From contig OX485807.1 of NCBI GenBank assembly GCA_950295325.1, positions 21,299,666 to 21,363,665 of the forward strand: a DNA stretch of 64,000 nucleotides. Direction: 5' to 3'. Below, one piece after another: positions 2,121 to 61,692 of the stretch. Within the stretch, counting starts at the first letter, position 1; every line of letters starts with the position of its first letter. Position numbers and translations under genes: made by a program. The notes below the pieces were generated by a model. The model saw only the letters and a program-made list of their open reading frames with translations, was not told the DNA's origin and did no database searches. This stretch comes from Polytrichum commune (lineage: Eukaryota; Streptophyta; Polytrichopsida; Polytrichales; Polytrichaceae).

Positions 2121-2453
2121 TCACTTCTTCTTCTCACCACCACCGGTGGCACGCATCTTCCGCAACACGGTGGTCATCTCCTCTCTCTTTCGCTTGGCAC
2201 GCAAGTGCGTGCCCAGTTTCCTCTTGGCCACCTTGAGAGCGCGCTTGTCCTTTCCAACCTTCAGGAGCTCGGTGATCCTCTTCTCGTAAGGAGCAAACCC
2301 TGCCACCTCGCGGATGAGCTTGCGCACGAGCGAGGTGCGCTTGCCGAGCTTACCTTTGGTGCTGGACGGCCGCTTGGCGATTTCGCGCTTCGTCACCTTG
2401 TGACCCCTGTTCATGCCTACGGCGATGCCGTTGCTCACAACGGAGGGCGCCAT
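2121..2453 (-). CDS. RPL36: 60S ribosomal protein eL36
   Basis: Encodes eL36, a small basic protein of the cytosolic large ribosomal subunit. The protein is 110 aa, the usual plant length (about 105-113). The diagnostic central block is [20 protein letters not shown], followed by [20 protein letters not shown] and a Lys-rich tail ending GGGEKKK. The ATG at 2453 was chosen because homologues begin close to it with a motif like GLNRGH (here [18 protein letters not shown]). The frame stays open a further 62 codons upstream, but that part has no family similarity and is probably 5' UTR. The coding region is uninterrupted, although plant RPL36 genes often carry introns; an intron in the 5' UTR or a retroposed copy are both possible. 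No poly(A) relic is seen downstream, and there is no disabling mutation, so I treat it as functional. Confidence 0.95.
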
Positions 2454-3637
2454 CGCTGCCAAACTTCTGCTCCACCTCTCGCTTGCAGGGAAGCCTCCGC
2501 TTGCAAAAAGAGCGTCTCCATCGCCAAACCCTAACCCTTGTGCTCTGGGGCTGAGCAGACGGTCGTCGAGCTCTCGATGAACGTTTGTGGACGAACGTCG
2601 TTCGTTGCTCAATCTCGTCCGTTGCTCAACCTCGATCAACCGGAAATTAAACTTACCCGGTGACTTATTTTTTTGGGTGGACCTTAAATCGAAGTGGTTG
2701 GAATCCTTAATTTTTCTTGCTACTATTTTTATTTAAAATTAATATTTTTATTTAAAATTTTATTTTTATATAAATTTACGAAACTCGTTATTGAATCAAT
2801 CAAAGTAAGCTCAAGGAATTATGATGATCTTGCAATTCTAGTTATAATCTGGAAAATAAACACTTCTAAAATGAGTTGGTGAAGATCAATGATGATGATT
2901 TTCTTGCAACCACATGGATGTAGTCTATAATTCACCCGTTATAACTTTCTCTTTTAGACATGCCAAGGCCATAGTGGGTATAAATGTGAGTAGGTGTTCA
3001 ACAAAAAGGTAATTAAGGTGAAGAAAAAAGTTTCATTTTTGGTTGTCGGTTGGTTAAACTTCTAAAAGCTCAACAATTTTCCACGTAATGACATGCATTT
3101 TTTTCATTTGCTAAAACGACGGTTGCAATGCTAATACATAAAAGCTTGTAAATGTTTAATAGGACTTGTGAACGTTGAATTGGTCAATTCTGGAGCATTG
3201 TCCCTTGTGTTGAACTTCTTGGCATCACAGAGATGTACTTATGCCAATGGATAAAGCATCAGTAGGGATCCAACGTGGATCCAACAAACATAGATCAAGT
3301 GAAAATCGGGTTCAATACTTGTTGGGGGACATAGATCATGTAATGGAAGCTTGAAAATCTTAAGGGGTTAAGGCATGGCCACACGTTTTAGTGACACCAA
3401 GCAATAATATTAAGGGGTGTTGATTTGGGCAACTTCTTTTGAGAGGAGACTAACCCTCTCTATATGTAATATACATTTACTTCAAGTTGTGGATTCCATG
3501 ATCAAAAATAATTTCTACACCACATAACACTCTACTAGATAAAGTTGAAGCTAGGATGATATTTGGTCAATATTACACATGAAGGGTTGTTTGCACTGTA
3601 AAGGTGATTATGGTTGTGGTTAACAATAATAATTAAA

Positions 3638-3672
<35 letters not shown>

Positions 3673-5490
3673 TCCCTTTGCACTTGTCTTGTGCAAATCC
3701 TTGTGTTGTGGTCATAGTCAATGGTGGGATTGGTCTTTGCAATCTATCATTAGTTCTCGAACTTGGAAAGAAACGAAGTGATTATTTTCCTTGTTGGCCT
3801 TGGATTGGCAGACCCTGGCCTTGAAGCTCTCTAGTGGTACCACGTGAGCATGAACAACCAACCTAAGAATGTTAACCATGCATATTGGTGGGGTTGGTGG
3901 AGGGTGAGGGTGAGGGTGGTTGCAATTGTGGTTTTCATCTATTAAGCCATTTTCTATTAAAATATTTTTTAAAAAAAAGTAAACCACAACCACAGCCGCA
4001 ATCACCCCTAATGTAAATGATCCTTGAGATGATGATAGTTCATACCCTTATAATAGAGGGGTTGAAAATCTCCACTATATGTGTATGCATATTGAAGTGT
4101 TTAAATGGGAGGAAGTGCTTCTAAATTTAGCCATAACATAGACGATTGCAGTAAGTTCTCCTCTCTCAAAGTGTGGATGGAAACTTAATGTAGAAATAAT
4201 GAATGTCAGCTGCTCTAATTTGTATAGTTAGGGTAGAATGGGCCTAAGGCTTGATGTCTTCCCCTAAGTCTTTGTGGAGATTTCCCACCAACACCTTGCA
4301 TCCTTAGTTTTAAGGGAAAAAAAACAACATAAATGTAAACAATCATCCACATCAACATCCTACAAAACCAAATAATGTGGTCCTTACTAAGTTAAACTCA
4401 AAGACATGGCGTGGGTTGAAAATCAACGGGGCCCACATCTATCCTCAGTATGAGAATTAATGTGGGATCTAGAGAATTGTTATGGCCTACATTAATATGA
4501 CAATGTAGTGCACCTACTATGTCAACCCCCAATGCTCAATACAATCCTAATTGTGTCTCATTTGCTAAAGGACTTAACCCTAATGTCCCTTAACCCTAAT
4601 GTCCTATGAGCAGTTCATTCTAACCCCTTTGACATTAGTTCGGATGGTTTCTTGATTGTTTACACTACTACTCTTGTTCATGTTTAAGTATGCTATATTT
4701 TTCCATGTGGATAATTTCAATTAAACAAAGTTAGTTATTTCAGATTAATTCAAATTTGGGAATATGCTTTCAACCAGTTTACAGTTGAACCAGATTACGA
4801 ACCAAAACTTGACATTTGTCACCTCCGGGTTTAAGGGCAACATATTCTAAACATGTTTTCTTTTGTTGATTCCTATGTGTAAATGATTCCCCATTGAATT
4901 GAAGATTTGCATGACACTCAAACGCATCATATCCAAAAAATCTACCATCCGAATTTCTAGTTGGACATGTGGAAGGTGGGTGTAAATCCATGTGGAAGGT
5001 GGTAGTTGTGGCACGACTGCCTCAACTTGCAAAGCTTCTTCAAAAATTAAAATAATGATTTCAAGATTTGTGAGTTGATTTGAGTAGATATATTGCCCAT
5101 TTTTTGTACGAGGATAACATTTTGTCACTTGTGAGCTGATTTGAGTGGAGGTTTGACCAAAAAAAAACCAACCCTAATTTAATTTTTAAATTATTTCCCC
5201 TTGAGACCACTATTGACATTCCTGTTATAACCTCCTACATAATAAAGCTTCAACATTTCAAATTTGGAGTGTGAGTAGTCATCTTTAACTAGCAAACATC
5301 TATATAGTTGGATTTGTCAAAAAAAACTTTAGATCTTCAGCTACAATTGCTAAAATTGAGGTCAATTTTTTTGGGCAAATTTGAGGGAAATTGGACGTGG
5401 GAAGTTAGGGGTCAAGGGCTAAATGTCATTTTTAAATTGGTTGCATGAGGTTAAAGGTGTCCATATTGGCAAAATGCGGGGATGGTCTTA
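2454..5490. other. AT-rich intergenic DNA upstream of eL36
   Basis: This holds the eL36 promoter and 5' UTR side (2454-2660, noticeably GC-richer) and then about 2.8 kb of AT-rich sequence with no supported exon. A (CA)n microsatellite lies at 3639-3670. Small open frames on either strand show no domain or codon bias. Confidence 0.55.
3639..3670. repeat. (CA)n microsatellite
   Basis: About 16 uninterrupted CA/AC dinucleotides read directly from the sequence. Confidence 0.95.
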
Positions 5491-5606
5491 TAGGCCCCCC
5501 ACACATACTGGTGGTGGGCAGCAGTGAACGGGCGAACACCGTTCGCTGCCACCAGTATGTGTGGGGATGTTTTCAGATTCTCAAAATATTACGGATTCCT
5601 TGTACG

Positions 5607-8080
5607 AATGAGTTTGAGAAATAACCGGTTGAGCTTTAGGGTACACCATGAGATAATAATATTCACGTGCACATTACGAATGAGTTTGAGAAATAACCGG
5701 TTGAGATTTAGGGTAAGCTAGGAGACAATTTTATTCCAGTGCACATTACGGATGAGTTTGAGAAATAACCGGTTGAGCTTTAGGGTAAACTAGGAGACAA
5801 TTTTATTCCAGTGCACATTACGGATGAGTTTGAGAAATAATCGTTTGAGCTTTAGGGTAAACTAGGAGACAATTTTATTCCAGTGCACATTACGGATGAG
5901 TTTGAGAAATAACCGGTTGAACTTTAGGGTAAACTAGGAGACAATTTTATTCCAGTGCACATTACGGATGAGTTTGAGAAATAACCGGTTGAGCTTTAGG
6001 GTACACCATGAGATAATAATATTCACGTGCACATTACGAATGAGTTTGAGAAATAACCGGTTGAGCTTTAGGGTACACCATGAGATAATAATATTCACGT
6101 GCACATTACGAATGAGTTTGAGAAATAACCGGTTGAGATTTAGGGTAAGCTAGGAGACAATTTTATTCCAGTGCACATTACGGATGAGTTTGAGAAATAA
6201 CCGGTTGAGCTTTAGGGTAAACTAGGAGACAATTTTATTCCAGTGCACATTACGGATGAGTTTGAGAAATAACCGTTTGAGCTTTAGGGTAAACTAGGAG
6301 ACAATTTTATTCCAGTGCACATTACGGATGAGTTTGAGAAATAACCGGTTGAACTTTAGGGTAAACTAGGAGACAATTTTATTCCAGTGCACATTACGGA
6401 TGAGTTTGAGAAATAACCGGTTGAACTTTAGGGTAAACTAGGAGACAATTTTATTCCAGTGCACATTACGGATGAGTTTGAGAAATAACCGGTTGAGCTT
6501 TAGGGTACACCATGAGATAATAATATTCACGTGCACATTACGAATGAGTTTGAGAAATAACCGGTTGAGCTTTAGGGTACACCATGAGATAATAATATTC
6601 ACGTGCACATTACGAATGAGTTTGAGAAATAACCGGTTGAGATTTAGGGTAAGCTAGGAGACAATTTTATTCCAGTGCACATTACGGATGAGTTTGAGAA
6701 ATAACCGGTTGAGCTTTAGGGTAAACTAGGAGACAATTTTATTCCAGTGCACATTACGGATGAGTTTGAGAAATAACCGTTTGAGCTTTAGGGTAAACTA
6801 GGAGACAATTTTATTCCAGTGCACATTACGGATGAGTTTGAGAAATAACCGGTTGAACTTTAGGGTAAACTAGGAGACAATTTTATTCCAGTGCACATTA
6901 CGGGTGAGTTTGAGAAATAACCGGTTGAACTTTAGGGTAAACTAGGAGACAATTTTATTCCAGTGCACATTACGGATGAGTTTGAGAAATAACCGGTTGA
7001 GCTTTAGGGTACACCATGAGATAATAATATTCACGTGCACATTACGGATGAGTTTGAGAAATAACCGGTTGAGCTTTAGGGTAAACTAGGAGACAATTTT
7101 ATTCCAGTGCACATTACGGATGAGTTTGAGAAATAACCGGTTGAGCTTTAGGGTACACCATGAGATAATAATATTCAAGTGCACATTACGGATGAGTTTG
7201 AGAAATAACCGGTTGAGCTTTAGGGTAAACTAGGAGACAATTTTATTCCAGTGCACATTACGGATGAGTTTGAGAAATAACCGGTTGAGCTTTAGGGTAA
7301 ACTAGGAGACAATTTTATTCCAGTGCACATTACGGATGAGTTTGAGAAATAACCGGTTGAGCTTTAGGGTAAACTAGGAGACAATTTTATTCCAGTGCAC
7401 ATTACGGATGAGTTTGAGAAATAACCGGTTGAGCTTTAGGGTAAACTAGGAGACAATTTTATTCCAGTGCACATTACGGATGAGTTTGAGAAATAACCGG
7501 TTGAGCTTTAGGGTACACTAGGAGATAATAATATTCAAGTGCACATTACGGATGAGTTTGAGAAATAACCGGTTGAGCTTTAGGGTAAACTAGGAGACAA
7601 TTTTATTCCAGTGCACATTACGGATGAGTTTGAGAAATAACCGGTTGAGCTTTAGGGTAAACTAGGAGACAATTTTATTCTAGTGCACATTACGGATGAG
7701 TTTGAGAAATAACCGGTTGAACTTTAGGGTAAACTAGGAGACAATTTTATTCCAGTGCACATTACGGATGAGTTTGAGAAATAACCGTTTGAGCTTTAGG
7801 GTAAACTAGGAGACAATTTTATTCCAGTGCACATTACGGATGAGTTTGAGAAATAACCGGTTGAACTTTAGGGTAAACTAGGAGACAATTTTATTCCAGT
7901 GCACATTACGGATGAGTTTGAGAAATAACCGGTTGAGCTTTAGGGTAAACTAGGAGACAATTTTATTCCAGTGCACATTACGGATGAGTTTGAGAAATAA
8001 CCGTTTGAGCTTTAGGGTAAACTAGGAGACAATTTTATTCCAGTGCACATTACGGATGAGTTTGAGAAATAACCGGTTGA
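5607..8080 (+). repeat. 72-bp tandem satellite array, 34 full units plus 26 bp
   Basis: Units start with (G/A)ATGAGTTTGAGAAATAAC and end in GTGCACATTACG. Unit starts fall exactly at 5607 + 72n up to 8055, so 34 units contain no net insertion or deletion. Five main unit types are visible. One has AAACTAGGAGACAATTTTAT; one has ACACCATGAGATAATAATAT. The others differ by GAGATTT/AAGCTAGG, by CCGTTTGAGC, or by TTGAACTTT. Every unit contains TTTAGGG, the plant telomere motif, once. Since 72 is divisible by 3, the array yields repeating 24-residue peptides, but several unit types end the frame within it and there is no sign of coding. Confidence 0.95.
5967..6974 (+). repeat. Two tandem copies of a 504-bp higher-order repeat
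   Basis: Units 6-12 (5967-6470) and 13-19 (6471-6974) follow the same order of seven unit variants, and by eye differ only at 6904 (G for A). Units 1-5 look like an incomplete copy of the same order. Units 20-34 are less ordered. This is the pattern expected from unequal exchange acting on multi-unit blocks. Confidence 0.85.
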
Positions 8081-8253
8081 AACCTAATAGTCCAAAAAAA
8101 ATTATCTTGTGCTAGGTCGACATTCACAGTGAACGGGCGAGCTGGGCGTTCGTTGCGCCCAGTCGCTGCCGTTACAAAAATTTATGGGAAAAGTGGCCCC
8201 CTGCTGGTGGGAGCCTGGGACTGGCCCTCCCACCAGCAGGTGTGGGCGGGCTA

Positions 8254-9155
8254 TTAGTTGCAAGACCTAGTTTTCTTTGATCTTGGGCGCTAAGGGTGCA
8301 TTTAAATTGGGGTATGGGTCTAAAAAGCTTAGGGTCCATAACATAACTTAATGATCTTACTTTCAAACTCAAGATTGGTCCCTCAAACTAGGAGGGGACC
8401 ACCAAGATTTGGCAAGAAAGTGATGCCACATTAGTGCCACTTCATTCTTTTATATATTGAACATGAAACCTAACACAAACTCCTGGAGTCCTAATCTTTG
8501 CTCTCGACCGATAAAATTGCTCAAGTTTAGAGATTCTTTGGTCTTGGACCCTAATGTAAACCCACCCTATGAGATTAAATTTCACCTTTAAATTGGCAGA
8601 ATGAGTCTAGAGGTGTCCTTATTAACAACTTATGAGGACGCTCTTAGTTGGAGATGCCATACCTATGAGAGTCTGTGTTCAACTTAAACATCTCTCAATA
8701 AACCTTACTTTTGTACTCAAGATTAGACCCAAGCTCGAAGATGAATAAACTAGGAGAAACATTTCTTGAGTCGAGACCTCAAAGATATGGCAGGAATGTG
8801 ATGCCCACATGAATGCCACTTCATTTTTCTCATAGCTTGGACCATGAGCCTAGTGTAAACTCCTTGGGTCCAAAATTTTGTTGACCAATAGGATCGCTCA
8901 ATTTTGAAGTTTCTTTGGTCTTGGACCCTACTAGTATAAACCCACCCCATAGTTATATTGAAGATTGCAAGTAGAGGCCTTGATGCCAATGAAGCTTTGA
9001 GCTCCCAAAGTACGCCAACCTCTTCATACAAATCTCTGTTTGTTGTTTGTTGTGAGCTTGAATGTTGATTGCGAGAGAGAGAGAAGCTCGACAATTTCGA
9101 TCGTTAGCGAGAGAAAGCGAGAGAGGGAGAGGAGCTTAGCAATCTTTTGATTGAT

Positions 9156-15939: not shown

Positions 15940-18900
15940 CTACCGCGATTTGCGCTGCGCCCGTCTCTTCTTCTCGATCGAGCCATTCGGCCCATATAGG
16001 TCTTGGTACAAGGGGCGGATCCGAAGAATGAGCACCACATTGAGGAGGATACCAATTGCACACATCCCTGCCATGACCAGGAAGACGGAACGGAAACAAT
16101 GAGACCCCATGCACCTCTGCTGGGGGTCACCTCCGAAGCTTGCAAAACTCTGCAAAACTGTGCTGAGGAGTGATGTGGTCGTTGTGAGGTGGGGTGCTTT
16201 AGCTGCCTCTCTGTCATACAGCCACCCGGCGAGCACGCCGGAGAACAGGAAGGAGCCCAAGGGTATGTTGAGAATGAGGAAGTTGTACAAGATGCCAAAA
16301 TGCTTCAATCCAAAGAGCTCGGAGGCGGTGGGCACGGTGATGGAGATGTGAACACCGTAGCAGACCCCGACCACAATGGAGCCGAGGTAGAGTGACCCTG
16401 GTGCCGCTGTCGCAAAAAGAATGTAGCCCATGACCAGGAATAATTGTGCGAGTGCCATCCACACTGGTCGCGGGATGGCTGCTTTCCTGCACATTTTCAT
16501 CAGCAAAAAAGAGTCAAACCTCCGTTCTTGTTCAACATATGTGTATAAATATCCTTGTAAGTATTGATGTGCAAATATCAACACTTACAGATAAACATAA
16601 ACCATAACAAAAGAATCAAGAGAGATAGGTAATCCAGCGCTTTTCGAGTTACATACTGCATACAGAGCAATCAGAAACTCGAATGGAAAAGAAAACAAAT
16701 CACACATGCACAATAGCCAAAGTGGAGGCAAGCCAATTGACCAGGGGCCATCCACAATGATCTATCTGCATGGACGAAGCCACCTTCAAAAACATCCCCA
16801 CTGACTTCATCATCAGTTCCCAAGAGTGGATGCTTGTTTTGATTTTCTCCTACTGATCTCTAGAGGCAACGAAAACACTCAAGGAAATTGTTTTACTAGT
16901 ATGTATAATAAGACCTCTAATTCGAGACATGGAAACCGGGAGGGATAAGACGAAAACCCTGAAGCAGGAAAAACAAAAGCTAAAAGTTTAGTTTGTTCAA
17001 CAGAGCCACCCTATTTTTTCTAAGCAGATTTTGACAAGCTCCCCTTTATGGTTCATCCAAACTCTTGAAAATTGTTTCTAACACTCCAAAATGTAGGGGC
17101 TCAACCCAAACTAAAAACAAAATGCACAACTTGCAATGAGAGCATGTCAGTCCAGGTCAAAGAATTGCGCAAGTATAGTATGAGAATGGATTTGGCAGAT
17201 ACTGCAATGTGACTTGAGGGATGGTAATTAAAAAGAGTAAGGTCTGGCAGATTCATACTTGACATAGTACTCGGAGATGGCGCCAGCGCCAATGCGACCG
17301 AAGAAGCCCCAGATGCTGACGAGGGAGATGAAGAGGGAGACGTCAGTAAACCCTTGCGCCTCACCAATTTGGCCCAAATTGTTGATGGCCGTAATCCCAG
17401 TGCCAATCCCGCACAAGAAAGTGAAAAACAGCAACCAGAAGTCGATTGTTACCAAGGCTTCGGAAAGGGTATGATCTTGCCCTAACACAGGCGCTCGGCT
17501 CACCTTCGAATCCTCACGTTCCTTCAAATCCTCACACTCATCAGCAGAATCAGCTTCCTTCTCAATTTCACCCTCACCACCATCCTCCACATACTCTGTA
17601 CCCATGTGCTCAGCATCCTCGTTGTTTTCTTCTTCCAAAAGTGGCTTCTTAATGCCATCTGCTGCCGGTGCTTCGGAGGAATTCGAAGACTGGGTTAACC
17701 TTCCCTCCGTGTAGGCTTTGATCATGAGCTTGAAGGGGACACCAAGAGGGGCAACGAGGAATATCAAGAGCACAACTGCGAAGAGCTTGAACTCGAGGGT
17801 GGTGAGAGGGAAGAAATTCTCAAGCAGGGTGAAAGTTAGAAGGTAAACTGCGAGAGAGAGTGAGATCCAGTTGAGGACGGTGAAGTTGGCCTGCTCTTCT
17901 ACGTCTTCTTCGTGACTGGACGATGGGGGAACCTCGCTCAAGAACAGCATGGCAACGAGGCAGACGAGGGCGGGGAGGAATGTGAGCAGAAGTAGGAAGG
18001 CGGAGGCTGAGCTGGTGAAGAGCGCTGCGCACAACTGTGTGAAGATGGCGGTGCTCAGACCAATGTAGCCCTTGAGTGTACCGGTGACAGTGCCTCGGCT
18101 CCGTGGGAAATTGCGCATGCATGTCACCAGCACCGCCGTGTTCATCCATGTGCTGCTGTTCCCGCCCATGCACAGGACCACGCACATCTGCAAACACACT
18201 CCCACCAAACTCTTTAAGGTTCAAGAATCTCTAACAGCAGTCCTACAGACATGGCAAATTCGAACCTCCCAGGTGTGAGAGGGGAGAGAGAATTGGAGAG
18301 TAATAATGAAGATGGAAGCAAGCGAAGGATCTGAAAGTGATGCATGTGGAAACTGTGAGGTGTTTTTTTCCTAAAAGCAATCAGACGACCAAGTGATGTC
18401 ACATTTGACCAGAAGTGGTTCTGTAGACTCCCCCTGTCTGTTGAGTGCAACCGCTGTGGGAGAGGTTGAGAAATGGAAAATTCGAAGCTCAAAGTTTAAG
18501 GAGGAGAGAGAGAATAGGAGAGTGGCCTTGATGGAACCGAGCGGGGTTCTGAAAAAGCGAGGTACATGGAAATTCTGAGGTGTTTTTTCTCTGGAAGCAA
18601 TCAGACGACCAGGTGTTGTCCACATTGACCAGAGTGGTTTTGGAAAATCCCCTGTCTGGTCAGGGCAACCTCCGTAAAAGAGAGTGTCTTTGAGAATGCA
18701 GTGACTACTCAAAGTACTCTGCCCTTTCACATCACACCTTATCCCTTCTTGACTTTCATGAAGCGGGGAACATCAAACACCGTCTTGGATAGGTAGTCCC
18801 TAGCCTCTCGACGATCCTCACCCGTTGAGAGACAAGACAGTAGGAACTGATGGGAGAGGCGGGGGAGGGCAGAGAACTGGAGGAGTAGAAATGCAGAGAA

Positions 18901-21452: not shown

Positions 21453-21610
21453 TAGCCCACCCACACTTACTGATGCCGCCCACCAGTGAACGATTCCTAC
21501 CAACATGAGTCGGTTTTAGAGTTAGTTTAGCCAATGAGAACCACTGGTTGCAACCAGTGTTGGTACTCACCGTTCATTGGTGGCCCGCACCGGTAATTGT
21601 GGGTGGGCTA
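21453..21610. mobile_element. 158-bp foldback MITE related to the ends of the satellite-bearing element
   Basis: The left end TAGCCCACCCACACTTACTG and the reverse complement of the right end, TAGCCCACCCACAATTACCG, pair. The pairing continues through CACCAGTGAACG with CACCAATGAACG and into TACCAAC. The same end motifs bound the array-bearing element at 5491-8253. No target-site duplication is convincing, and there is no coding potential. Confidence 0.65.
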
Positions 21611-25082: not shown

Positions 25083-25438
25083 CTGGGCTAAATCACATAT
25101 GTGTTTGGTTGGGCCCCGCCCCTCCCACGCCTCTTTCACTGCTTGCTCTTCCTGTTCGCACCTGTGTGGGAACTCTTCCCCGTTGGGAACCAATGTGACA
25201 ATAGTTGGTCACTTAAGCCATTAAGCTCCTTTGGTATGTGAAGGAACTTCACCAATTAGCTTGGGAATAATGAAAGTGGTGTCAACTTGAATATTTGTAA
25301 TTTTGACCGGGTATTATCACATTGGTTCCCAACGAGGAAGAGTTCCCACACATGTGCGGGCAGAAAAACCAGGCAGTGAAAGAGGCGTGGGAGGGACGGG
25401 GCCCAACCAAACACTATACGAATGTGATTTAGCCCAGG
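25083..25438. mobile_element. Large foldback element with ~130-bp arms
   Basis: 25083-25212 is the inverted copy of 25304-25438. Paired blocks include TGGGCTAAATCACAT, TTTGGTTGGGCCCCG, CCTCCCACGCCTCTTTCACT and GTGGGAACTCTTCC.CGTTGG, ending in GGAACCAATGTGA. A loop of about 90 bp separates the arms. The RNA would form a very long hairpin. Non-coding. Confidence 0.75.
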
Positions 25439-25489
25439 ACCAAAACTATAGCGAGGTTTGATTACGTACACCAATGAACAGGGAGAACC

Positions 25490-25560
25490 AACCGTTAGTT
25501 ACAAATGAACCGGTTGAGTTTGAAAGAATAACCGGTTCAAATTCAAGACGTCAAGAAAAG
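25490..25560 (+). repeat. Single diverged unit related to the 72-bp satellite
   Basis: Contains ATGAACCGGTTGAGTTTGAA followed by AGAATAACCGGTTCAAATTC, sharing the GAGTTTGA-AATAACCGGTT core of the array at 5607. Confidence 0.5.
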
Positions 25561-26754
25561 TACCAATCCCTTTAGAGGAATATAGAAAGAATATTCTTGA
25601 TTAAATTAAAGAAAAACACCACACAATGTCGACACACAACCGGGTTTGTCTTGGAAACCCTTAGAATCTCGACCGATATTGTCCAATAATCTCCCCTGGA
25701 CACTCACTTACACTCATTGAAGTGTGCACATGCATTTCAATGTGAAGGGCTTCAAAATAATCACACTTCACTCAAACTTTCAAACTTTTTTTGCAACAAT
25801 CCATAGATAAAAATAAAAATAATTGCACATTCACATATAGCTATGTATGCCAAGCCGAAGTTGTAGGAGTTATTGGAATTTGGAAATGTCTTCTAGAGTG
25901 TCAAGATCAGAGTCTATCTATGTTTTTATTTGCAAATTGCAGCCATTGTATTTTGTGACATGCAATTTTTGAAGAGGTCTTCATTGTGAAGGGTGAAAAC
26001 TTTACAGAGCACATTTTTGTGAAGTGCCCAAAAGAAGGGGAAAAAAAAAACTTTTTCGACATCCAAAATGACATTTGACAGGTGTTGAAGACTTCAACAC
26101 TGAACACTGCCTACACTGCCAGCGAAGCCAGTAGGAACTCTCACCGACAGCTCCCACGTCGACACGTGTCCGACAGAAAGCACCTTGTACGGAAACTGTA
26201 CTTTTCATGTACCTTGCCATCATTTTACGGCCAATAGGAAGCGAGGGCAGCGTCAGAAAGGTTTTCCTACGCCGAGCCTTTGCCCGCGGGCAGGCCCACC
26301 AATATATGGGTGCCCCCCACAAATATGTTTATTATTACCAAAATATCCAACCTCCAAAAACTCCCAACAACCAATCAGGACTCACTGACTTGCATGGGCA
26401 CCAGGTCGCCAAATATATCTATACATACTTTGTGGATGCCATGCATCCTCCACATGGCGAGCCCCTATTGGCTCGTGACGAGGGCTGAAGTTTAACCCAT
26501 GTCTTCATTTGTTGTCGAGTCATCTCAAATGACAAGCCCACTCTCCTTGCATCTTCACTTTAACATCCGCAATGCAGATGCAGATGCAGGGAAGTTGCCC
26601 ACTCATTGACATAAATATCAAACACTTATGAAAATTCATATATGCTAGAAGTCTTGTACTCCATGCATATATATGTGAGAGATTATGCAGGGAGGGTTAT
26701 ATATAATAAGGCACAGATTTGTTCGACCTTCGGCATGTTATGTTTCTCTAGTAT

Positions 26755-27015
26755 CAGCTAGTTATAAATGAAGCAGATGAGTTTGAGACTTCAAAAAAAA
26801 AATACTAGTTACAGATGATCCGGATGGGTTTGAGAAATAACCGGTTGAGGTTTGGGACTTCAAGGAAATTACTAGTTATAAATGAACGGGATGAGTTTGA
26901 GGAAATAAGTGGTCGAGGTTTGAGACTTTAGAAAATTAACCATCGCATACGAACCGGACGAGTTTGAGAAATAACCAATTGAAGTTCGTGACTTCGGAAA
27001 ATTACTGGTTGTTAT
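26755..27015 (+). repeat. Short diverged tandem array related to the 72-bp satellite
   Basis: About four units of roughly 66-68 bp share GATGAGTTTGAGAAATAACC (variable), a GGTTGAGGTTTG block and a GACTTC..GGAAATTACTAGTT block. The first half is the same core as the 5607-8080 array and the second half is unrelated to it. Confidence 0.7.
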
Positions 27016-28100
27016 AGAGGAAATTCAAAAGTTAGTATCGAAAACAATGCAGGTTGAGTGGCAATTTTGCCTGGGTTTGCATTTGCATCTTGGATGGAGG
27101 CCACTTTTCATTCCCGAATGCAGTTGCAGATCCAAGAACAACATGGCTTGCTCTAGTTCAAGGTCTTTAAAGCAAATTTTGGTGTCAAATCACCTAAAAC
27201 AAATGATGTCCAAGTTGTATCACAAATTTTAAGTTGGATAGGCACGTTTGTATGATGATAATTCCTCCCTCTCTCTGGGTTAGGCTAGGGATCCATGGTG
27301 TCTATGTAAATTCATCCATTGTGAAGGTGAAAACGTCGTGGATTATAGTATAGCCCGAAAATGAGTATTTTAAGATAATTTGACTCCAATAGTAAAGTCA
27401 AAGACCTTGAATGAGTCTAGTGCAGTTGAATTTGGATGAAGCGACCCTCAATCTTGTAGGGGATTTTTTTATTCTTTTATCTTTTATCTTTCCATTGGAG
27501 TCCTTTCATTCACGATGGACGAGTTTATGTAGATGCCATGACTCCCAAGCCTCCGGGCTAGACATCCAACTCTTTGAGTTGGGCCCCCACCACTATTGCC
27601 AAGTTAAAGGTGGTTTAGTACAAACATGACTCATGGGGAACTCCATTGGGAACTTAGGGAACCTTCAAATCCCACACAAATGCTCTCATACAACCGGTTG
27701 CATTTCATTTCATTTCAAGGTTGGTCATCAAAAGGGGCTTGGAGTTGATGGTTAGTACCCTTGGTTCTACCTCTTAGAAGGAAGAGGTAGGAGTTCAGAC
27801 CCCCCCCCCTTCCATTGGCATCATCTCCTCTACATGTCCTTTTAATGAAGGACTTAGTTTTAAAAAAATTCATCCAAGATTCGTGAGTGGATGGAGGTGG
27901 AAATTTCATACAACGTGAAGTTTTTCAAGCCCTACCCAAGGGGAAGAAAAGCGAGAAGTTGGGGCAGCATAGGAGCCTTTGGATCTGTCAGATTGCAATT
28001 GATGACCGAGATCTTCCTAGCCCCTGACCACACGGGAGGCGTTCACAACACCTCAATGACGCGGAGGGCCCAGAGCAGAGAAATACTATTGTAATGAATT
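27016..28100. other. Intergenic DNA, nothing recognised
   Basis: AT-rich with a C tract at 27801-27809. Short open frames lack support. Confidence 0.4.
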
Positions 28101-28109
28101 TTTAATGAA

Positions 28110-28463
28110 TCTTTTTTGGGGGAAGAAAAGATGAAGACAAAAGACGACAAGAGAATGATCAAAGAAATCAACACACATTCACTTGTTGGTACATGGTCAT
28201 TCCTCTTGGTCCACATTCGGTTTACACAGCTAGGGCGAACCAACCCGTACAGTGGTTCCTTGGAGGCAAGGGTTTAGGCATCCAACAAGGAACGAGTGTA
28301 TGGGCTGGTTCACCCAAATCCGGTTTACACCTAATGAGGGGCCCAAAGGCTCTATAAATTGGATTTTTGAAAGAAAAAAAAGAAAAACTTAAAAAAAAAC
28401 CAGACCATGGGAAAAGGCCATCTTCCATGGTCCGACTTCATGGTCCATGGTGTAAAGCGGCCC
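28110..28463 (-). mobile_element. Tourist-like element, 5'-truncated copy in reverse orientation
   Basis: The right end (28463) reads, reverse-complemented, GGGCCGCTTTACACCATGGA and is followed by TAA. The internal blocks match the complete copy at 47428-48013 in the opposite direction: CCATGGAAGATGGCC, then GCCTTTGGGCCCCTCA, then GTGGACCAAGAGGAATGACC. The other terminus is missing. It contains a nested 93-bp insertion (28228-28320). Confidence 0.6.
28228..28320. mobile_element. 93-bp nested MITE with 10-bp target-site duplication
   Basis: Compared with the copy at 47.5 kb, the host repeat is interrupted here by 93 bp flanked by an exact CGGTTTACAC duplication (28218-28227 and 28321-28330). 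The insert folds: GGGCGAACCAACCC near its left end pairs with GGGTGAACCAGCCC from its right end, and GGTTCCTTG pairs with CAAGGAAC inside. A 9-11 bp duplication suits Mutator-type elements. Confidence 0.7.
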
Positions 28464-29291
28464 TAAGCTTACATGATGAAGGTTGGTAAGGTAAAATTGT
28501 GGATGGGGATGAGGAGGTGTAAAGGCATCGGCCATGCATTTGACATTAGACAAGTGTTGGAAAGCAAGGATGACATGGCATCGCCAAGTCAATGAGGGAG
28601 GTCGAGCGTGCCAGGCGTTACTAATCAAAAGGTCTTGTTGTACGAGCCCGGCCATTTGTTTGTACTTTGGCTGCTTGTCTTTGCATGGGGGAGGTAAGGT
28701 AGCATGGGGTTCGGTGAGCGACCTAAATAAGTTAAGTTACCAAATGGGGAGATTGAAAACGTTGATTGTTATGTATGCATGCATGTACACTAACTAGGGT
28801 TGTTAAGTTAGTGTGATTAACACTAGTTTCTCTACCATTTCGTAAACATTTAGGAAACGTATTTTTAGTATGATAGCAACTCTAATGTTGGACTAAATTT
28901 ACTTGAGAAAAAGAATTATGGCGACATCAATTAAGTAAGAAGACAATCCTGCATAGTTTCACGTGTCTCCACTTGTCATCATGGGTAGAAAATAGGGTTT
29001 AGGGTCACGATAACGTTATGGGGTCACAAAGTGCCTCTCATATGCTCCTACGTTAAGGGATAGTGCCCCGACTATGTTTGGAATGGTCCTACCACATTGT
29101 GTCTGTCCTTTGAATGTCGGGGGGAGGATGCAAAAATCCTAAGCGTTTGACAAGAAACGGTGTCATTTTGTCGCAAAATTGAGACATTGCATTAACTAGG
29201 GCTTTACTTCGCAGTAAGTAAGTTCCTAGTATTCTAGAAAGTTACGTTCGGCCTGATGATGCCAATGACATGATTGCTTTTTTTTTTTTGG

Positions 29292-45883: not shown

Positions 45884-47427
45884 TTCGGTACAAAACCGGT
45901 GCTTGACATCATCCTTTTAATCCCCTCAATATTGTGATTTTTTTCCCATAATTTTTTTGTCATGCATCATATGTGACTTCTACTGGTATTGTATTATGCA
46001 TTAATGACCATATAGTCATGTGTTTGCACTATGTTTTTTTTTGGTTATCACACAATACATGCATAATTCTAGTATCTCTGAAGGTCTGAAATTACCTAAA
46101 GATCAATTTCCTCCATTTCAAAACCTGGAATTCAATAACTCCTACAACTAGCCGAATAATAATGTTGTCTCCATCTTTTAACAACATATTGAGTATACGG
46201 AAAATTCCCACTTGTCAAGGGAATATGACAATGTAAAGCCATAAAGGAGGCCATAGGACCACCATAGTAGAAAGGGTATTAGCAACCAATGATATAGAGT
46301 TGCTATGGAACACAACAAGGTCATGTAGTCTAAGAACTAGACCAAAAGGAACAATGTTGGAGGAGATGGACGTGTTGCAAGGAATAACTTCCTCTACCTT
46401 TTATGGTCAATTTCGTTGGTCTAGAAAGGGTATTAGCAACCAATGATATAGAATTGCTATGGAACACAACAAGGTCATGTAGTCTATGAACTAGACCAAA
46501 AAGAATGAGGTTGGGGGAGATGAATGTGTTGCAAGGAATAACTTCCTCTTACTTTTTATGGTCAATGTCGTTGGTCTAGGCTCTCTATAAAGATTCAACT
46601 TTGCCAAGAATAATACACTTTTGTGTTGAGAACAAGGACAACAAAGTGCCAAGGATGTCGGTATGATTGGTGGCTTGTTTTTACATGTTATTTCTATGCC
46701 GTATATGGTATTTTAGTGTCACATACACTATTTGCAAAAGGCGTAAACTAGATGCCTCAATGTCTCAAGGTGTCACGTCCGTTAATTGTCGATGCATGTG
46801 ATACTTTTTGTCAGTATAAGTACTTTTTTGAAGTGAAACATTATTTACGTTATGACATTTAGTAGAGTACATTGGAATACTTCAGATTATAACTTTACGT
46901 TTAGTATGGAAGGGAGGAAGATATTATTGAGCATATACTAATGGAAAGTGTCATGTGTTCACATTTTAGTAATGCAAGAGGAATACTTTCTAGAGCATCC
47001 TAATGCCAAGTGTCATTTGTGTGCACTTTAGTCAACTTGTAGATCATTCTGATTAACATAGGTGTACATCTCATAAACACTATTGAACATACTCATGTCA
47101 ACGTATTAATTAGCACACTCAATCGCCAAGTGTCATGAGGTGACAGTAATGGTGAGGTTATTGATTATTTTGGGAACCTACCATACGCGTCAAAGTAGTA
47201 TAAGTGACACTATTACACATGTGACACTAACTACCATAGAATGGTGTAGTATTACATAAGTTATTGTATTTAGTGTCACCAATTCTTTTTCTCTTGCTCA
47301 ATACTAATTGTAAAGTGCCCGCGTAGTGTCACCAACACTAAATGTAAACCTAACATTATTTGTTATTCCTTGGAAAACATATTGGACATCATGGATTTAC
47401 AATGTTGCAATTGTTGTTACTTATTAA
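45884..47427. other. Intergenic DNA with a 154-bp duplication and scattered AGTGTCA motifs
   Basis: No exon is supported. From about 46680 to 47350 the motif AAGTGTCAT or its relatives occurs repeatedly, which might be the subterminal repeats of a decayed DNA transposon, but no end is recognised. Confidence 0.4.
46269..46577 (+). repeat. 154-bp direct tandem duplication
   Basis: The copies at 46269-46422 and 46423-46577 both begin AGAAAGGGTATTAGCAACCA and end in a TCGTTGGTCT block. They differ at about a dozen positions. Confidence 0.9.
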
Positions 47428-48013
47428 GGGCTAGTTTACACCATGGACCATGAAATCTAACCATGGAAGATGGCCTTTTTCCATGGTCCAACTTGACGGT
47501 CCAACAACCATGGTCTTGTTTCTTAAAAAATCAATTTACAAAGCCTTTGGGCCCCTCACTAGGTGTAAACCTAATGTGGACCAAGAGGAATGACCATGCA
47601 CCAAAAGTGAACGTGTTGATATTTTTAATATATGACCCAAAAAGGGAAATTTTGAAAAAAAAAAAAAAAGTTTGACCATTCTCTTGTCTTGTCTTGTCTT
47701 GTCTTGTCTTCATCTTCTCTTCCCCCCAAAAAAATTTCATTCAAAATTTATTATAACATCATTCCTCTATCATGGGCCCTTGCCATTTTCTATTAAAGCA
47801 CCTCTTTTACCTCTCCCACCACAAAACCCGTTGGACCATGTCAGTGGATAATGCATGAATTAAAATATGTCTTTTAGGGATCTCGAATGTCATGGTCACT
47901 CTGACATTTTTTCCTTGGTGTAAACCGAAGTGGTACCGGGACAAGTTCAACAACCAATCACAAATTTTACAAGGCCTTGGGACAACTTCATGGTCCACGG
48001 TGTGAACAACCCC
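47428..48013 (+). mobile_element. Complete Tourist-like (PIF/Harbinger-type) MITE, TAA duplication
   Basis: The left end GGGCTAGTTTACACCATGGA and the reverse-complemented right end GGGGTTGTTCACACCGTGGA pair over about 25 bp, flanked by TAA on both sides (47425-47427 and 48014-48016). At 586 bp it is the reference copy for the family seen at 28.2 and 32.4 kb. It contains a (TCTTG)n microsatellite near 47680-47710. No transposase. The superfamily call rests on the GGGC..GTTT-type end and 3-bp duplication. Confidence 0.7.
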
Positions 48014-60399: not shown

Positions 60400-61692
60400 T
60401 GTGCCAATTTAATCAGTTGAGCTTAATCATATAACAAAACTTTTGATCTTCAGTGAACCGTGTTGTAATTAACAAGGGGAAGTCTGAAATTGGAGAAGTC
60501 TTCCTGATTCCAAAAATTTTCAACTACCGAAACTAGGTCTCAATAAGAAAATGGCACGGAACAAGAAATTTTTGGCAGAAAGATTAGACCGAATTATATC
60601 GAGAACGCGTCTTTGCACGCTACATAAGTGAGAATCTACACAGGAACGAACTAACAGGTGGCTGAAAAGTCCTTCGTCACATGCAAATTACACAGAAAAG
60701 AACTGAAATGACTAAGTAGAATTGCAGCTACACAATCTGCATAGAAGATTGCCGAAGCAAAAAGAGAGCTGGACTTACAAACCCTAAAATTTGCCTAGAA
60801 TCTGCTTGAAAGGGAATGTGTGATGTATGAGGAGCCTGCATAGAAGATTGCCGAAGCAAAAAGAGAGCTGGACTTACAAACCCTAAAATTTGCCTAGAAT
60901 CTGCTTGAAAGGGAATGTGTGATGTATGAGGAGCCTGCAGTTGAGCTCCTTTGTGAGGCAGGCAGGATATGGCTGCACCATAGCTTTGACTTCTCATCCA
61001 TTTTGGATGATATTCATCAGGGCTTGCCTTTCAAGGACAAGAATTTAAGAGAATACCACCAAATGAAAAAAATTCAACTCCATCTATAAATGTATAAATT
61101 TTTCGATGGGACGGTGTGTATAAATGTCCCCTAGATAGAAATAATTGACGGGCACAATGTAAATGGAAAGTGAAATTTGCAGAGGGGGAATATACTCCTC
61201 TCTGTGTTGGAACTAGAAAGTGACTTTCAGTATGCATGGAAAAAAATGGATTGCATAAAATTGTTGGTGGGGACCCGAGATCATTGTGGCATGTTGCACT
61301 AATTTTTATTTTTCCATGTTAGTCTCATTATTCAAACCTTGCTCAAAGTTTTGGAATGTTTTAGGGTTTGTTTCCATTTTTCAAGAATCTCAAGATATAA
61401 AGTGCAACAAATCCACTCATGCAACATTCAAATTGAGTGATTGCGATGATGACCACATTCCACTCACATGTTTGACAACAAGACAGATCTATTCTCATAT
61501 GTTGGGCCCCCTACCCCACATGGAAGTGCTCGGACATGATATCAATAATTTAATCATTGAAATTGAATATCAATTTCAACTTGTGTTGAATCGTGAAAAT
61601 GCAGTGAGACATGCGTCAAGTGTAGACCTTTCTCTAAATTGCAATTATAAACTGCCTGAAGATTTCTATTCCTCCAAAAGAATGTAGATACA
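60400..61692. other. Intergenic DNA between the two right-hand genes
   Basis: This contains the promoter side of the plastid-protein gene and the 3' flank of the TRM1-like gene. A plus-strand open frame (ATG near 61316, stop at 61687) of about 123 codons ends just below the TRM1-like stop; it has no domain and is probably fortuitous. Confidence 0.45.
60739..60936. repeat. Perfect 99-bp tandem duplication upstream of the plastid-protein gene
   Basis: 60739-60837 and 60838-60936 read the same at every base. The unit begins GCATAGAAGATTGCCGAAGC and contains AAACCCTAAAATTTGCC. It lies about 340 bp upstream of the ATG of the plastid-protein gene. Confidence 0.95.

Follow-up and report, generated by a model that had tools for sequence, protein, structure and literature searches.

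A 72-bp tandem array inside a hairpin-ended mobile element of Polytrichum commune, most probably copied from another transposon family

How tandem repeats turn up at many places at once is a long-standing question. The PIF/Harbinger-like element MtPH-A6-4 of Medicago truncatula displays, in the passages of its report that concern the repeat, a 60-bp VNTR of 2 to 35 units, which at the extremes takes up almost the whole interior (PMC2213677). The repeat is present in 18 of 23 members and absent in 5, and gap repair was proposed; it is tied to one subfamily, in which it is thought to have evolved (same passages, PMC2213677). An array-filled Harbinger element is thus not new. The foldback element Tetris and TIR-220, both of Drosophila virilis, are non-autonomous and have variable internal tandem repeats, and the relevant passages state that these lie inside the TIRs and grew to long satellite arrays, and that the autonomous partner was not found (PMC4079207). 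In Xenopus, miDNA4 is a MITE of the Tc1/mariner type with a variable array, for which capture of a pre-existing repeat and microhomology are proposed in passages of two reviews (PMC12628747, PMC9659126). For mPing, a yeast transposition assay that uses Harbinger ORF1 and transposase is reported to have been published (PMC2836001).

The DNA analysed here, termed the window, is a 64,000 nt stretch of Polytrichum commune contig OX485807.1 (positions 21,299,666–21,363,665) from an assembly of 407.8 Mb in 64 contigs. Positions 5491–8253 of the window form an element of 2,763 bp (termed family A) whose inverted ends each contain one or two hairpins and which has TTA at both flanks. The element appears to be a young, non-autonomous element of the PIF/Harbinger type. 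Part of a 72-bp array, copied from a Harbinger-like MITE family (family B), would have taken the place of its interior, and the array length would then have changed inside A. The probability of this reading is put at about 0.75. Coordinates are shown in Table 1.

Table 1. Positions in the window of the family A element, its parts and related sequences.
Feature	Position	Strand	Remark
Left copy of 3-bp target duplication, TTA	5488–5490	.	TTA recurs at 8254–8256
Family A left end, including hairpin 5497–5566	5491–5602	+	112/112 identical in L009 and L010; fold z −6.26
72-bp tandem array, 34 units and a partial unit, higher-order repeats	5603–8080	+	
Family A right end, including hairpins 8132–8173 and 8196–8247	8081–8253	+	99% identity across 173 bp, L009 and L010; fold z −5.02
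Right copy of target duplication, TTA	8254–8256	.	
Possible paralogous empty site: one TTA within a diverged direct copy of the sequences flanking the insertion	8576–8930	+	weak evidence
158-bp MITE, A-type termini, without array	21453–21610	+	3-bp flanks differ, AGT/TCA
Family C copy containing the repeat-unit core	25470–25696	+	75% across 231 bp to a C copy
Old family B MITE holding the 67-bp repeat form	26530–27153	+	ends with 4 and 3 mismatches; TRF 67 bp x 3.4; flanks common to other B loci

The terminal sequence of the window element is TAGGCCCCCCACACATACTGG at the left and, reverse-complemented, TAGCCCGCCCACACCTGCTGG at the right, and the two ends can be aligned with each other over ~36 bp. 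The left hairpin has perfect outer arms of 18 bp, and the right end displays two hairpins. When folded as DNA, neither end was equalled by any of its shuffled sequences (0/200 for either). The array consists of 34 full units of 72 bp followed by ~30 bp, and carries 34 TTTAGGG motifs, one per unit. Mismatches between units average 3.7 at lag 1 and 2.22 at lag 7, i.e. there is a higher-order pattern; the lower value at lag 7 makes it probable that blocks of ~seven units arose by duplication. An earlier note on this DNA, made from the letters alone, had placed the array (with its start at 5607) inside inverted ends with TTA on both sides, with a hairpin in each end and one TTTAGGG in every unit. 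That description stands, with the array start moved to 5603. A classical foldback element of the Tetris type was ruled out by the position of the array between the ends and by the ~36 bp span of the left/right alignment.

Neither an Rfam scan nor a tRNA scan (the latter with the bacterial code) gave a hit in the window. Elsewhere in the window, matches were found to ribosomal protein L36e (2121–2732, minus strand) and to a nodulin-like MFS transporter (15940–18208, minus strand). A direct duplication of 154 bp with 92% matches is present at 46268–46579, and a 99-bp unit is repeated 2.1 times with 100% matches at 60737–60939.

Two other array-bearing A copies were found, L009 and L010, on contigs 6 and 4. 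Each is 891 bp long with 8 units and has A ends as in the window element; the ends of the three copies show 1, 1 and 2 differences per 285 positions. Alignment of L009 with L010 is restricted to the element and the flanks are unrelated; no match to the flanks of the window element was found within either locus. The 3-bp duplication is TTA/TTA in the window, and the other two copies have TTT/TTT and TAA/TAA. The family A element is thus mobile, with three copies that have near-identical ends, unrelated flanks and their own 3-bp duplications. A search with the ends had been proposed in the earlier note as a way to find copies with different array lengths, and the length does vary among A copies, from 34 units in the window to 8 in the two 891-bp copies. 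The note had also proposed a look at the TTA duplication and at empty sites. All three copies have duplications of their own, but an intact empty site was not found: a genome search with the joined flanks returned just both flanks of the window insertion. A 2-bp TA duplication, raised as A ends in TA, was ruled out by the TTT and TAA at L009 and L010, and a Helitron by the inverted-repeat ends together with direct 3-bp duplications.

Next to the element, the joined flanks have 75% identity across 75 bp to positions 8576–8650, passing the junction by just 4 bases, and 76% across 160 bp to positions 8775–8930, colinear with the first match. Judged by sequence, this segment may possibly represent a paralogous empty site, although the suggestion is a weak one.

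The terminal pattern of family A has 59 exact matches in the genome, left and right ends counted alike, versus 0 for the reversed control; the pattern is therefore not a chance one. Both ends were seen in 24 elements, a count that omits seven one-end loci (L047, L054, L056, L057, L059, L061 and L062). A matched 3-bp duplication is present in 18 of the 24 (16 TTA or TAA, 1 TTT, 1 TCA); the flanks of the remaining 6 are unequal, which counts against the reading favoured here. The full CTTAG target is found at 12 of the 18 matched sites, with a flanking C in 17 and a flanking G in 13. The extended target of maize PIF is CWCTTAGWG. Family A thus displays both the 3-bp duplication with preference for TTA/TAA and the extended target preference of PIF/Harbinger elements, and insertion at CTTAG-like sites points to this superfamily. 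The TIR itself does not conform: A begins with TAGGCC, unlike the listed Medicago Harbinger TIRs, which start with GGG or GGC.

An autonomous A or B element was not found among 150 scored DDE_Tnp_4 frames (of 990 candidates), the nearest being 13.8 kb from the 53 A-end places entered, and three transposase loci that were examined are without A or B ends and without a TIR flanked by TTA/TAA. The 158-bp sequence that the earlier note had taken for a relative has the same termini and no array, but its 3-bp flanks differ from each other. A second copy (L021, positions 4873–5030, 80% identical) is flanked by TAA/TAA. In L051, also of family A, a second right end lies 70 bp past the first and TTA follows both.

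Fifteen A elements, picked from the best end matches, were read through. Only the window element, L009 and L010 contain the array, and it is absent in 12 of the 15; in these 12 the ends do not flank it, which the earlier note had named as evidence against its own view. All 12 array-free elements hold at least one copy of the core of the unit (described below). In L028A, two or three degenerate copies of the core have a tandem-like spacing of 77–82 bp; each of the others has a single copy, or one per strand. The picture of a mobile element in which a tandem repeat expanded is therefore retained in part: the TIRs, the 3-bp duplication and the difference between 34 and 8 units agree with it, but an origin of the repeat in A does not, as most of the A elements read through lack the array and a more diverse form is found in family B.

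When the genome was searched with the array, 72 matches were obtained; 40 of 69 candidates were scored, so that the search is non-exhaustive. Besides the A copies there are 37 array loci (36 fetched, and the locus at 26.5 kb in the window). With a tolerance of up to 5 mismatches per 17, at least one family B end is found at 36 of the 37, both ends at 29, one only at 7, and none at L036. Both ends have two or fewer mismatches each at 22 of the 37. Matched duplications are present in 22 of the 29 loci with both ends (21 TTA/TAA, 1 TGA); the B copy in the window has AAA/TAG and no matched duplication. The ends of family B are GGGCAAGCCCAGTGACC or its variant, and GACTGGGCTTGCTC. An alignment of the flanks of 24 of the 37 array loci shows a common left sequence of up to ~250 bp and a common right sequence of ~160 bp, and the arrays at non-A loci are 96–895 bp long.

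The exact end pattern of family B has 32 matches in the genome, and eight copies were fetched. Seven of these are 371–388 bp long and have no units. The eighth, L085 (752 bp), has an irregular array with a similar core spaced at 53, 53, 110, 60 and 66 bp. All eight show TTA on the right (TTA on the left was demanded by the search pattern itself). With its short TIR and its TTA/TAA duplication, family B is a Tourist/Harbinger-like MITE. Satellite DNA independent of a mobile element is disfavoured, within the non-exhaustive search, by the B ends at 36 of 37 loci and by the array lengths. Likewise, no free satellite was seen among the 40 of 69 candidates scored, and the suggestion of the earlier note that transposons seed satellites here found no backing: except for L036, no array was seen outside A or B ends, with 7 of 37 loci having one end only.

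A 23-bp core of the unit, GAGTTTGAGAAATAACCGGTTGA, is present in 1,687 exact copies in the genome versus 0 in the control, and no core pair 72 bp apart occurs among the first 100 listed matches on contig 1. Twelve core loci were read, from the first on contig 1, and all 12 sit in a mutually matching dispersed repeat of ~226 bp, termed family C, whose TIRs resemble CAATGATCGGGGAGA. Eight of the 12 have both ends; their 8-bp flanks match at 8 of 8 bases in four, at 7 in two, at 6 in one and at 5 in one. For L100 the right end counted is that of a neighbouring copy, and L103 is almost a duplicate of L104. The 8-bp target duplication and the CA(A/G)TG terminus show that family C is a hAT-like MITE. 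Full-length C elements (226 bp) are found within the A elements L050 and L054; the flanking bases are the same, which indicates the same C insertion point.

Older B copies have C positions 34–100 in tandem, in units of 66–69 bp, and the 72-bp form is held by the loci denoted B1 and B2 and by A. From its sequence, the core of the unit is derived from family C. The TTTAGGG motif goes with the 72-bp form and also with intermediates, L033 among them; the older 67-bp form reads GGTTTGAGACTTC where the younger form reads GGTTTAGGGT. A telomere-derived unit was rejected, as the window has no tandem TTTAGGG pair and the older unit has no motif. The motif in the units thus looks coincidental, and the hint of a link to the plant telomere in the earlier note is not upheld.

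Other repeats occur in the window. An inverted repeat at 25101–25414 (111-nt arms, 88% complementary, 92 nt apart), probably another MITE, adjoins the C copy at 25470. Positions 28186–28464 and 47427–47604 share several blocks in inverse orientation (81–95%) and are two copies of a dispersed repeat.

A tree was made from 66 units with duplicates collapsed, all of them 72–73 bp save three of L033. There are two unit types in A; one groups with the B1 loci L016, near position 1208561 of contig 5, and L018, near position 14009528 of contig 7 (97/93), and the other lies separately among B1/B2 units. For each of the 14 distinct A units the nearest B unit is 0.92–0.97 identical, and the TCCAGTG variant of A is found only in L016 and L018 among the seven B loci displayed. 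The tree favours transfer from B to A, but the AU test, on an alignment of just 72 columns, leaves the direction unsettled (p = 0.127 for a single clade of A units, p = 0.107 for a B1+B2 clade without A). The stronger argument for this direction is the distribution, in that the array is diverse in B and present as three near-copies in A. The lack of the array in 12 of 15 A elements, the B ends at 36 of 37 other loci and the derivation of the core from C together make it most probable that the array did not begin in A and that it was copied from a B element, with later expansion. At its edges in A, the array abuts sequence common to the array-free L047 on the left and L055 on the right, with ~2–3 bp overlap each (for L047, the 1.7 kb that was read contains no right end). 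The array probably entered by gap repair involving a template switch.

An alternative is that A built the array out of C-derived sequence of its own, and that the B array is independent. The core copies in all 12 array-free A elements would suit this, as would the two or three copies spaced 77–82 bp apart in L028A. Yet the A array shares with B1/B2 a half of the unit that is absent from C (TTTAGGGTAAAC..GTGCACATTACG), and the core is on the opposite strand in the relatives L049, L051–L053, L055, L058 and L060, so that this origin is quite unlikely. A and B may each have taken the array from a third source, i.e. a free satellite or a further transposon family. Capture of a pre-existing tandem repeat is what the passages on miDNA4 propose (PMC12628747), and the array search scored 40 of 69 candidates. 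A third source is nevertheless unlikely: 36 of the 37 other array loci have at least one B end (at 5 mismatches per 17), the 67-bp, intermediate and 72-bp units are all within B-flanked loci, and the first 100 core matches listed on contig 1 contain none 72 bp apart.

The insertion of a whole B element in A, with later loss of its own ends and retention of the array, also seems quite improbable. Nesting does occur, as the full-length C copies in L050 and L054 show, but neither junction has a B end or B flank; both junctions fall within the array, abut A sequence and are alike in the three copies. An objection of another kind is that the 34 units in the window result from misassembly of a shorter copy. 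Near-identical units are indeed difficult to assemble; however, the window units differ in an ordered fashion and have variants of their own, and the assembly is made up of 64 contigs, so that such an error is very improbable.

The copying of the array from B into A can be placed in a proposed series of five steps. A fragment of ~85 bp of the hAT-like MITE C, which is present in B, would have come into B by a route that can only be surmised. Inside B, a 67-bp piece would have been duplicated in tandem and have drifted to the 72-bp unit; the forms and the intermediates are observed, and their order is presumed. A stretch of B1 array that included two or more unit variants would then have been copied between A ends, as the common units and unrelated ends suggest, perhaps by gap repair after A excision or by similar template switching, in the direction favoured by distribution and tree. 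The array-bearing A, whose copies and duplications are observed, would have spread to three or more chromosomes by means of a transposase acting in trans. Finally, unequal exchange or slippage may have led to the difference between 34 units in the window and 8 in L009 and L010.

It appears rather likely that the repeat has had three transposon families, belonging to two superfamilies, as its carriers. A hAT-like MITE would have provided the core, which would have become a tandem array within a Harbinger-like MITE; this array, unit variants included, would next have entered a different, hairpin-ended element, which spread the repeat again. If this is true, the history of the repeat is independent of any single carrier. 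That the array in the three near-identical A copies most likely came from another family suggests that repeats can pass from one mobile element to another. As one genome contains a candidate donor family, the recipient together with relatives that have no array, and the two junctions, a repair-mediated hand-over is directly testable. In a limited search of open-licence PMC papers, no report was found of an array passing between, or common to, named transposon families with unrelated ends, which suggests that the transfer from family to family is what is newer here.

Family B resembles the Tourist-like MITEs of the PIF/Harbinger superfamily in its TIR (GGGCAAGCCCAGTGACC), its TTA/TAA duplications and the 371–388 bp of its array-free copies; it differs from them in the internal array of some copies. 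Family A is like Tetris and TIR-220 in its variable internal tandem repeats and non-autonomous nature, and in that an autonomous partner was not found; unlike the description in those passages (PMC4079207), the array here is enclosed by the ends, and the non-exhaustive search revealed no free satellite. Family A shares with miDNA4 the variable array in a MITE; miDNA4 differs in its transposon type, and no donor transposon is named for it in the passages of the reviews (PMC12628747, PMC9659126). There is also a likeness to MtPH-A6-4, as its report describes it in part (PMC2213677): both are TIR elements with 3-bp duplications and an interior of short tandem repeats. Unlike in MtPH-A6-4, the array here is common to two families whose ends are unrelated, and hairpins are formed by each end of A.
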